Shown here in pieces: positions 2,594 through 33,979 of a stretch of 39,572 nucleotides of DNA. The notes beneath the pieces were generated by a model. The model did no database searches and was not told the origin of the DNA. It saw nothing but the letters and a program-made list of their open reading frames with translations. Position 1 is the stretch's first letter, and each line of letters begins with the position of its first letter. Source of the stretch: a virus; IMG/VR virus record IMGVR_UViG_3300027852_000092, positions 1 through 39,572 of that record. The stretch is one strand, 5' to 3'. Position numbers and translations under genes: made by a program.

Positions 2594-2608
2594 AATAAGT
2601 CGCTTATT
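2594..2608 (+). promoter_or_regulatory. Operator-like inverted repeat, copy 1
   Basis: AATAAG-TCG-CTTATT is a perfect 6-bp dyad with a TCG centre, immediately after the 952-2586 gene and upstream of the connector/tail operon. The core ATAAGTCGCTTAT recurs at 31719-31731 on the same strand and at 22315-22327 on the opposite strand next to the HTH gene. It is probably a binding site for a phage-encoded regulator. Confidence 0.6.
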
Positions 2609-22283: not shown

Positions 22284-22314
22284 GCTCGGGTCCTTTGGTT
22301 ACCCGATTGATAGC

Positions 22315-22327
22315 ATAAGCGACTTAT
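22315..22327 (-). promoter_or_regulatory. Operator-like inverted repeat, copy 2, by the HTH gene
   Basis: ATAAG-CGA-CTTAT on the plus strand reads ATAAG-TCG-CTTAT on the minus strand, the direction of the HTH gene. A weak minus-strand promoter overlaps: TATGCT (complement of 22312-22317), with TTGTGC 19 bases further upstream. Binding here would plausibly repress the HTH gene. Confidence 0.65.
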
Positions 22328-22359
22328 ATTCTGCGAGCACAAAACTAGGTGGCGTTCCA

Positions 22360-31672: not shown

Positions 31673-31705
31673 GAAAATTATTTTGTGGTTCGCGTCGATT
31701 TCTTG

Positions 31706-31734
31706 TTGACGCGGACCTATAAGTCGCTTATACG
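31706..31734 (+). promoter_or_regulatory. Sigma70-like promoter with embedded operator (copy 3)
   Basis: TTGACG (31706-31711) and TATACG (31729-31734) are exactly 17 bases apart, a near-ideal promoter. The perfect dyad TATAAG-TCG-CTTATA (31718-31732) fills the spacer and overlaps the -10. A weaker hairpin CGCGTC / GACGCG (31691-31713) overlaps the -35. Bound regulator would block RNA polymerase, so the downstream genes should be under repression. Confidence 0.75.
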
Positions 31735-31771
31735 TCGTCACATCAACAACGAAACAACGGATGGACACGAC

Positions 31772-31993
31772 ATGGCACAGGTAGAAAACTTCGAAGGCGA
31801 AAAAGTCAACGTGAAGGTTGGTGACTACGTCGGTTTCAAATGTGACATTGAGCAGTATGCTCAAATCGTAAAAATCACCGGCAACGGAATCTACACCACG
31901 CTGCACTTCGCATCGGACGAAGGTTTCGAAGGTGACTACATCCGCGACAACACCGAACATTCCGAACGCGCATCCGACTGCTGGATCGACTAA
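31772..31993 (+). CDS. Small acidic hypothetical protein
   Basis: The 73-residue product begins at ATG 31772, 38 bases after the promoter -10 box. It reads MAQVENFEGEKVNVKVGDYVGFKCDIEQYAQIVKITGNGIYTTL and then an acidic tail ending SDCWID. The VKVGDYVGFK segment and following strands suggest a small SH3-like beta barrel, but no family is certain. As the first gene behind an operator-controlled promoter, it may be early-expressed. Confidence 0.6.
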   Translation: MAQVENFEGEKVNVKVGDYVGFKCDIEQYAQIVKITGNGIYTTLHFASDEGFEGDYIRDNTEHSERASDCWID

Positions 31994-32015
31994 TCCTCAA
32001 ACAACGGAGACTGAC

Positions 32016-32231
32016 ATGACCAACCTGAACCTCACCACCCGCGAAACGAAACTGACTGACGCTGAGTTTGCGTCGATTGAACGCAACGCGGACGGCCGCA
32101 TCCTCGACGACTTTGACTTCGTCTGGATTTGGGCAACCCCTGAACAAAAAGCCACGATGCACGGCGACGACCTGTCGCGTGGCGACGACACCGACGAAGA
32201 ATTGCGTTGCATGCTCGCTGAGTTCATGTAA
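32016..32231 (+). CDS. Small acidic hypothetical protein
   Basis: The 71-residue protein starts at 32016 after ACAACGGAG. It is very acidic (DGRILDDFDFVWIWATPEQ, RGDDTDEELRCMLAEF) and lacks membrane or catalytic motifs. Such acidic proteins in phage early operons sometimes mimic DNA, but nothing here proves that. It follows the 31772 gene by 22 bases in the same operon. Confidence 0.55.
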   Translation: MTNLNLTTRETKLTDAEFASIERNADGRILDDFDFVWIWATPEQKATMHGDDLSRGDDTDEELRCMLAEFM

Positions 32232-32285
32232 TGTACCACCCGCGCAATCCTGCGCATCAACTGACCACAACAACTGGAGACTACT

Positions 32286-33002
32286 ATGACCAAACAATTC
32301 ATCGCCCACGCTGACGAACCTCGCACCTTTGCCGACAAAAAAGGCGCGACCAAAGCGATCAAACGTGACCTCACGAAACATTGGGACGCCCACGGCGACG
32401 TTCTTTTTGACACCGGCTTTGACGTGAAAGAATCTGGTGATCGTTTCGGCGTGATCTTGTACTGCGACCTGACTGCCAAGTCTGCGAAAAAACTCGTGGG
32501 CGCGGAGCTGACTGGTTACGTGATCGAACCACAACTCACGGAGGAACCTGTGAAAAAATCCAAGCCCGCAAAACCTGCGACAACTGCAAAACCTGCAACG
32601 ACCGACGCGCCCAAAAAGCCCTCGCGTCGCAAAGGTCAAGTGCGCGTTGCACCGACAACCTACGCGCTCATCCCGTGCCGCGCTGGCTCGAAGCAACAAG
32701 CGATCATCGACATGATCTCGCGCGGCAACGTCTGGGACCAACCGTTCCTCGACGACGACGAAAACGAGATCGGTAAACTGTCGCTTGTTGGCGGCGCGAC
32801 GCTCGACGACCTGCGCACTGTCTGCATCAAAAAAGATGGCGTGACGCCGTGGGACGACAACTCGATCCGGTCCGCGTTGTACTACGACCTCAAAGACAAA
32901 GGCTACGGTACGTCCACGCAATTCGTTGACGGCATCCCGATCTACTCGCTCGTCCTGCCTGTAGGCGTCGATGCACCTTTGCCCGCAAAAGGCACATCCT
33001 AA
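32286..33002 (+). CDS. Two-domain protein with Lys/Pro/Thr linker, possible DNA-binding
   Basis: The 238-residue protein starts after ACTGGAG. Residues 1-85 are an N-terminal alpha/beta domain (FIAHADEPRTFADKKGATKAIKRDLTKHW). Residues 88-120 are a repetitive basic linker with PAKPATTAKPATTDAPKKP and RRKG. The C-terminal domain (IPCRAGSKQQAIIDMISRG, WDDNSIRSALYYDLKDKGYG) has the look of a winged-helix DNA-binding domain. A hairpin follows the gene. A DNA-binding role is inferred from basic linker and helix pattern. Confidence 0.55.
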   Translation: MTKQFIAHADEPRTFADKKGATKAIKRDLTKHWDAHGDVLFDTGFDVKESGDRFGVILYCDLTAKSAKKLVGAELTGYVIEPQLTEEPVKKSKPAKPATTAKPATTDAPKKPSRRKGQVRVAPTTYALIPCRAGSKQQAIIDMISRGNVWDQPFLDDDENEIGKLSLVGGATLDDLRTVCIKKDGVTPWDDNSIRSALYYDLKDKGYGTSTQFVDGIPIYSLVLPVGVDAPLPAKGTS

Positions 33003-33010
33003 GATCGTGC

Positions 33011-33038
33011 TTGCGCTCGTCAGGGCGCGGCATATAAC
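33011..33038 (+). promoter_or_regulatory. Weak candidate promoter before queC
   Basis: TATAAC (33033-33038) matches the -10 consensus at five of six positions, with TTGCGC (33011-33016) 16 bases upstream as a weak -35. It lies 99 bases before queC, but the terminator-like hairpin at 33046-33071 lies between, so productive use is uncertain. Confidence 0.25.
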
Positions 33039-33045
33039 GTTGGTG

Positions 33046-33071
33046 AGCGGTCGGCCTTCGGGTCGGCCGTT
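33046..33071 (+). terminator. Terminator-like hairpin with UUCG loop
   Basis: GGTCGGCC (33049-33056) and GGTCGGCC (33061-33068) can pair across a TTCG loop with two G-T wobbles, extended to 33046-33071 by outer pairs. It lies 44 bases after the stop of the 32286 gene and separates it from queC. No T-tract follows. Confidence 0.5.
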
Positions 33072-33083
33072 ACCAAGTAACCA

Positions 33084-33099
33084 GCGCGTTTAAACGCGC
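33084..33099 (+). repeat. 16-base perfect palindrome of the GTTTAAAC family
   Basis: GCGCGTTTAAACGCGC is a complete dyad upstream of queC. It is the longest of eight GTTTAAAC copies in the window: 552-559, 4081-4088, 13538-13545, 21767-21774, 23599-23606, 27156-27163, 33088-33095 and 35597-35604. All eight have C on the left (CGTTTAAAC), and six of eight have G on the right. Coding copies usually contain a TTA leucine codon. Confidence 0.85.
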
Positions 33100-33136
33100 A
33101 CCTGTGATGGACTAACCAGGAAAGGAAAACCATCTC

Positions 33137-33979
33137 ATGACCTCCAAAGCACTCGTCGTCCTATCGGGCGGCCAAGACTCCACACTGTGCCTGCATTGGG
33201 CGCTTCAGCAGGGCTACGACGAAGTTCATGCTGTCGCGTTTGACTACGGTCAGAAGCACAACATCGAACTCGAGATGGCAGCACGTCAGTGCGCCGACTT
33301 GAACGTCGCGCTTGAGATCACGCACCTCGGTGCGAACATCCTCGCCGGAACGTCGCCTTTGACGAACCCAGACGAGAAGCTCGAGCAATACGAAGACGGC
33401 GACCTTCCTGGTGGCCTCGAAAAGACCTTCGTGCCGATGCGCAATCAACTCTTCCTGACCGTCGCTGCCAACCGCGCATATGTGCTTGGTGCAACGAACC
33501 TGATCACTGGCGTCTGCCAGGAGGACTCAGGCGGGTATCCCGATTGCCGTCAAATCTTCATCCACGCCGTCCGCGACGCGTGCAACACGGGCACCTTCAC
33601 GGGTGAACCTGGCACAGTGTCGAACCTGACGATCCACACGCCGCTGATGAATCTCAGCAAGGCGGAGTCGATCATCATGGCGATGAAGATCCCAGGCGCC
33701 TATGCCGCATGGGCATACTCCCACACGGCCTACGACGGCGCCTATCCGCCCAACGGTGCAGATCATGCGACCGTGCTGCGTGCGCAAGGCTTTGAGGCCG
33801 CGGGCGTTCCCGATCCTTTGATCTGTCGCGCATCGTGCGAGGGCTTGATGGAATTGCCGGACACCGACAACTACGACGTTGCTCGGAAGGTCACTGACAA
33901 GGGACCGAAAGGCAAAAAGAAGTCGTGGACAGCGGATGAATTTGTTGCGCTGGTCGCGGATGCGGTAGGAGCAGCATGA
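33137..33979 (+). CDS. queC: QueC-like 7-cyano-7-deazaguanine synthase lacking zinc cysteines
   Basis: QueC uses ATP and ammonia to turn CDG into preQ0. The 280-residue protein has the PP-loop SGGQDS (10-15), then FDYGQKHNIEL and the family's FVPMRNQLFL. The C-terminal zinc site of QueC is four cysteines in an SCY and CGxCxxC arrangement. At the matching place (about 195-219) I read SHTAYDGAYPPNGADHATVLRAQGF, placing Ala198, Asn206, Asp209 and Thr212 where cysteines are expected. A pair of cysteines follows at LICRASCEG. The remaining catalytic segments look intact. It overlaps folE by four bases. Confidence 0.85.
   Translation: MTSKALVVLSGGQDSTLCLHWALQQGYDEVHAVAFDYGQKHNIELEMAARQCADLNVALEITHLGANILAGTSPLTNPDEKLEQYEDGDLPGGLEKTFVPMRNQLFLTVAANRAYVLGATNLITGVCQEDSGGYPDCRQIFIHAVRDACNTGTFTGEPGTVSNLTIHTPLMNLSKAESIIMAMKIPGAYAAWAYSHTAYDGAYPPNGADHATVLRAQGFEAAGVPDPLICRASCEGLMELPDTDNYDVARKVTDKGPKGKKKSWTADEFVALVADAVGAA

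Follow-up and report, generated by a model that had tools for sequence, protein, structure and literature searches.

Genes and signals between queD and queC

The window, which is the whole 39.6-kb virus record that was analyzed, is kin of the Nanhaivirus phages R5C and R26L, to which it is 75.6% and 76.3% identical in DNA sequence, respectively, across the matching portions of a 9-kb query. Pfam and PHROG matches identify genes for QueD, QueC, FolE, QueF, and a TGT-like protein, which form a block for predicted 7-deazaguanine modification of DNA. Between queD (a PTPS match, 9e-16) and queC (2.5e-49) are three open reading frames, orfA, orfB, and orfC, and their presence and boundaries, as given in an earlier note on this DNA, are confirmed (Table 1). 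The phages R5C, R26L, and Pan1 have the same que block, OrfC, a small helix-turn-helix (HTH) gene, and the regulon described below, but OrfA and OrfB give way in them to other small ORFs or to none.

Table 1. Positions of features in the window
Feature	Position	Strand	Remarks
Hairpin, 13 pairs, loop of 5	31687..31717	+	Between queD and cassette; 3' arm holds -35 box
Sigma70-type promoter TTGACG-N17-TATACG	31706..31734	+	-35 TTGACG at 31706-31711, -10 TATACG at 31729-31734
Palindromic operator TATAAGTCGCTTATA, 15 bp, perfect	31718..31732	.	Overlaps spacer and -10
OrfA, 73 aa	31772..31993	+	Acidic, putative variable cargo
OrfB, 71 aa	32016..32231	+	Acidic, putative variable cargo
OrfC, 238 aa	32286..33002	+	Basic, conserved; predicted DUF3489-like C-terminal winged helix
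Structured queC leader, three hairpins	33050..33137	+	Stands between cassette and queC
HTH gene, 64 aa	22089..22283	-	Candidate palindrome reader
Operator copy, 1 mismatch	22314..22328	-	30 bp upstream of HTH gene
Operator copy, 2 mismatches	2594..2608	+	Precedes gene at 2682; position matches R5C 30215, Pan1 19100

The promoter ahead of orfA had been called the best in the window. It is a real promoter-like match, but it is one of 22 window sites with a consensus score of 9/12, and its rank is tenable only when the operator and the comparative evidence are added to the score. A simple promoter scanner omits positions 31706-31734, and simple scanning for promoters and terminators is uninformative here. 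The hairpin whose 3' arm holds the -35 box folds at -23.1 kcal/mol, and none of 200 shuffled sequences folds at so low an energy. In R26L and Pan1, too, the operator is preceded by a hairpin whose 3' arm covers or adjoins the -35 box. The window hairpin, which lacks a U tract, may or may not act as an intrinsic terminator.

The gene orfC occupies this position in nine loci: those of the window, R26L, R5C, and Pan1, and five others (L006, L007, L029, L031, and G001). The number of small ORFs before orfC is two in the window and L031, one in L006, L007, R5C, Pan1, and G001, and none in R26L and L029, and by eye the ORFs that occupy this slot look mutually unrelated. Because the slot holds zero to two other, seemingly unrelated small ORFs in related loci, OrfA and OrfB are, on this comparison, exchangeable cargo. 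Only OrfC is kept in the relatives, so the three genes do not form a single conserved cassette.

Five relatives of OrfA are present in viral contigs, where they occur within runs of tiny phage ORFs, and no relative was confirmed among annotated phages, plasmids, or the genome_contigs collection. Its fold is tentatively a small SH3/KOW/Tudor-like barrel (best Z 7.3, rmsd 2.5, 62 residues aligned), as one good structural model was obtained among five (80.5, versus 40-55 for the others). Foldseek against the PDB returned no match to OrfA at E 0.001. Among 50,697 phage records, OrfB has a single relative, which lies in Citromicrobium phage RXM, 0.7 kb from an annotated ArdA gene; in the viral_contigs collection, none of eight candidate stretches was confirmed.

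OrfC is predicted to comprise an N-terminal alpha/beta part, a basic linker at about residues 89-120, and a C-terminal winged helix. The C-terminal half matches 70 annotated phage records, which are mostly YuA-like, and also PHROG 7790. Against DUF3489 (PF11994; cut-off 29.5 bits), the OrfC of the window scores 12.6 bits and its R5C orthologue 31.7 bits. The structural model, which was built from six sequences, has a mean pLDDT of 75 and a pTM of 0.52, and places the winged helix at about residues 132-228. Its best structural neighbours are MecI and BlaI (Z 6.3, rmsd 3.1 over 72 residues to 1okr_B), although a Z of about 6 can mean a common arrangement only. Foldseek on the PDB found no match to OrfC at E 0.001, and a PDB sequence search with the OrfC family gave nothing credible. 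Judged by domain match and model, OrfC is probably a conserved, DNA-binding protein of the DUF3489 winged-helix type. The domain in the window carries an insertion of roughly 25 residues. This insertion (about residues 147-169, window 32724-32792) lies inside the winged helix, and among the orthologues it is found only in the window, L006, and L029.

The DUF3489 proteins of Mesyanzhinovviridae (such as YuA gp08, PHROG 7790) share with OrfC the predicted winged helix and a neighbourhood of base-modification or ribonucleotide reductase genes, but the N-terminal half of OrfC is not recognizably shared. Relatives in YuA, Sonora, Pam3, and RHph_I65 are located near genes of one or the other kind. 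The possible link between OrfC and DNA modification is only a lead, because the shared neighbourhood partly reflects shared descent.

The three genes might instead act jointly as an anti-defence cassette. They share an operon, and OrfA and OrfB are small and acidic (pI 4.4 and 4.2), as the earlier note had said of all three proteins; also, the OrfB relative is near an annotated ArdA, and the OrfA relatives are in arrays of tiny ORFs. However, OrfA and OrfB are replaced or absent in the eight other loci while OrfC stays, and OrfC is basic (pI 8.6), is not small, and resembles DNA-binding proteins. PADLOC gave no match for any of seven proteins, although it covers defence genes and not anti-defence genes, and no annotated anti-defence relative of OrfA, OrfB, or OrfC was found. 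A joint anti-defence function is unlikely on this evidence, and OrfC is more likely to be a DNA-binding regulator than an anti-defence peptide.

A palindrome placed at promoters across the clade

The perfect palindrome TATAAGTCGCTTATA lies inside the promoter-like match ahead of orfA, in agreement with the claim that an operator is present. Three palindromes near TATAAGTCGCTTATA, the perfect copy included, are found in the window, where 0.11 matches are expected and none of 100 shuffles reaches this count. When up to two mismatches to four variants are allowed, R26L has 16 sites, R5C 9, Pan1 15, and the window 3, compared with shuffle means of 0, 0, 0, and 0.05; these variants were selected in light of an initial scan of the sites. 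Six further records were scanned with a reversed-word control: all six match the pattern, and the control gives 0. One of these, G001, was new to the motif scan, and pieces of the other five had been scanned earlier. The motif is shared by phages that infect an alphaproteobacterium and phages that infect a cyanobacterium.

The sites lie between genes. In R26L, whose genome is 93.7% coding, 14 of the 16 sites are free of coding bases, and the other two touch two and five. By eye, in the gene tables of R5C and Pan1, overlap with an annotated gene does not exceed 5 bases at any of the 24 sites. Upstream of the orfC operon, the palindrome is present with up to two mismatches in seven of the nine loci and with three mismatches in L031; R5C has none within three mismatches.

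Sites are also set in fixed registers relative to promoter elements. In a set of 46 sites scored in both orientations, which omits one R26L site close to the end of its record, boxes with at least five of six matches to TTGACA peak at offsets -23 (seven boxes) and -12 (five boxes), whereas 0.34 is expected at each and no other offset has more than two. These registers are 11 bp apart, and place either one half-site or the other at the -10 position with a 17-bp spacing; the cassette promoter of the window is in the -12 register. Only 12 of the 92 site-orientations score five of six in the two registers, and most sites are without a strong -35. Each of the other 11 promoters in these registers is followed by a first gene that is hypothetical, according to annotation inspected by eye. 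By association, this favours accessory or host-takeover genes. It is suggestive only, because a function is predicted for 42 of 116 R26L genes, so that about 64% lack one. A helicase gene follows one site in R26L that has TTGACA at -13.

Copies of the palindrome outside the clade of R26L, R5C, and Pan1 are possible. Exact TATAACTCGCTTATA occurs in 48 stretches of the viral_contigs collection, of which 11 have a GC content above 0.5; the stretches are mostly not GC-rich and hold single matches, which may be due to chance. In the accessible literature on phages of the R5C/R26L type we found no comparable motif described, whether as a promoter, an operator, or a palindrome, and a search at the same depth found no paper on the palindrome or on the GTTTAAAC motif discussed below. 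The operator-controlled cassette is real, yet it belongs to a phage-wide regulon and is not an isolated unit.

Candidate readers of the palindrome

The HTH gene is a candidate for the regulator of these sites. Its product matches Pfam HTH_19 at an E-value of 4e-4 and 20.7 bits, which is under the curated cut-off of 30.2. Its length across the clade is 64-77 amino acids. Sequence identity to the orthologues in R26L, R5C, and Pan1 is 64-81%, with the HTH region conserved in the alignment and the putative recognition helix nearly invariant. A PDB sequence search with this protein gave no solved relative and nothing credible. The gene was sought in ten records (the window, R26L, R5C, Pan1, and G001-G006), and a palindrome is located 30-36 bp upstream of it in all nine records that hold it; the tenth, G002, is a 37-kb fragment. 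This fixed position suggests that the palindrome is probably read by one small, virus-made, Cro-like repressor.

Cro of phage lambda is a small, autoregulated HTH repressor with palindromic operators that overlap promoters. The protein proposed here is likewise small and is predicted to be an HTH protein, with putative operators on promoters and its own gene under the same operator. It differs from lambda Cro in that there are nine to sixteen sites per complete genome and no integrase or CI partner is reported, and the Cro-like role is a prediction. The genome papers on R5C and R26L, in their available text, report no repressor and describe these phages as being without lysogeny genes. Control by one phage protein of many genome-wide sites is exemplified by the immunity repressor and stoperators of Cluster A mycobacteriophages (PMC9283540). 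Stoperators are asymmetric and stop elongation, whereas the sites here are palindromic, intergenic, and on promoters, those with a clear -35 being in the promoter register.

We consider it likely that a Cro-like HTH protein represses a phage-wide palindrome regulon that includes its own gene, and that the cassette is a member of this regulon with exchangeable cargo and OrfC. The HTH protein would bind the 15-bp palindrome where it overlaps the -10 region of some ten to sixteen promoters in each genome, and would block RNA polymerase at these promoters, its own among them. After entry of the DNA, the promoters would fire until the HTH protein builds up, and then would be shut off together with the HTH gene. 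This would produce, early in infection, a pulse of small accessory proteins. In the queD-queC interval, the slot directly behind such a promoter holds the exchangeable OrfA and OrfB, which probably serve in host takeover or anti-defence, followed by OrfC.

Alternatively, the palindrome might be a site for an activator or host factor, as in a middle-promoter element that recruits polymerase through a host or phage protein. Promoters that are activated often have no good -35, as is true of many palindrome sites, and YuA gp08, a relative of OrfC, is behind an annotated 'putative sigma70 promoter requiring phage-encoded cofactor'. However, both registers put a half-site over the -10 position, and a protein bound there would normally exclude polymerase. 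A host factor in particular is difficult to reconcile with the same motif in phages of an alphaproteobacterium and a cyanobacterium, and activation at these sites appears quite improbable. It is also hardly probable that the OrfC winged helix, rather than the small HTH protein, reads the palindrome and controls the regulon, as its predicted resemblance to MecI and BlaI and the palindrome at the start of seven of nine orfC operons might suggest, because R5C has nine sites and orfC but no site ahead of orfC, because four phages that have OrfC relatives and no HTH gene (YuA, Sonora, Pam3, and RHph_I65) have no palindrome, and because the HTH gene carries a site in nine of nine records.

Repression by the HTH protein is the reading that we prefer, although the HTH gene and the palindrome regulon were found in one clade only, so their co-occurrence could result from shared descent. 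If the reading is correct, the motif gives a list of genes that are likely co-expressed at takeover in phages published, in the text available, as having no repressor, and the HTH gene is a single gene whose loss would probe the whole scheme. Small anti-host proteins could also be sought across the clade in the variable slot ahead of orfC.

A wider proposal, which we regard as a long shot, is that this clade of lytic phages scatters small, rapidly exchanged anti-host genes across the entire genome and ties them into one regulon with a palindrome that doubles as a -10 box and has one autoregulated, Cro-like protein as its sole reader. OrfC would then be another DNA-binding regulator, one associated with base hypermodification even where the chemistry is unrelated (7-deazaguanine in this phage, thymidine modification in YuA-like phages), and could perhaps tell modified phage DNA from host DNA.

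The queC leader and a recurrent octamer

At 33012-33040, ahead of queC, a TTGCGC box lies about 16-17 bp before a TA-rich box, and by eye this arrangement is present in most relatives. Because the promoter-like sequence recurs, queC is probably not wholly reliant on the cassette promoter; it has this promoter-like sequence and a structured leader of its own.

The three hairpins of the queC leader are kept in eight sequences, with 94.5% of cells paired. Nine of 21 pairs have changed on both sides, a level that is reached by two of 500 shuffles and is far above that of slid controls. The loop of the third hairpin contains the Shine-Dalgarno sequence, and this hairpin ends on the start codon of queC. 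A ninth sequence (L049) has the same layout by eye. Rfam models at the gathering threshold find nothing in the window, the leader included. The leader might represent a new cis-regulatory RNA that belongs to the deazaguanine pathway.

The octamer GTTTAAAC occurs 20 times in R26L, 17 in R5C, 16 in Pan1, and 8 in the window, where base composition predicts about 0.3-0.4 occurrences each, and in all four it ranks first of the 256 palindromic octamers. Its window positions are 552, 4081, 13538, 21767, 23599, 27156, 33088, and 35597. It was not found in five other phages. We can only guess at its function; it might be a binding site for a phage protein or a modification target. In six further records the octamer occurs 36 times and the reversed word twice. 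TTTAAA is part of GTTTAAAC in 20 of 20 instances in R26L, 17 of 19 in R5C, 16 of 16 in Pan1, and 8 of 9 in the window. In R26L, 12 of the 20 copies lie wholly within genes. The copies are also spaced more evenly than random sites, with coefficients of variation of the gaps of 0.36 in R26L (reached by none of 20,000 random sets), 0.59 in R5C (P 0.017), and 0.51 in Pan1 (P 0.004).
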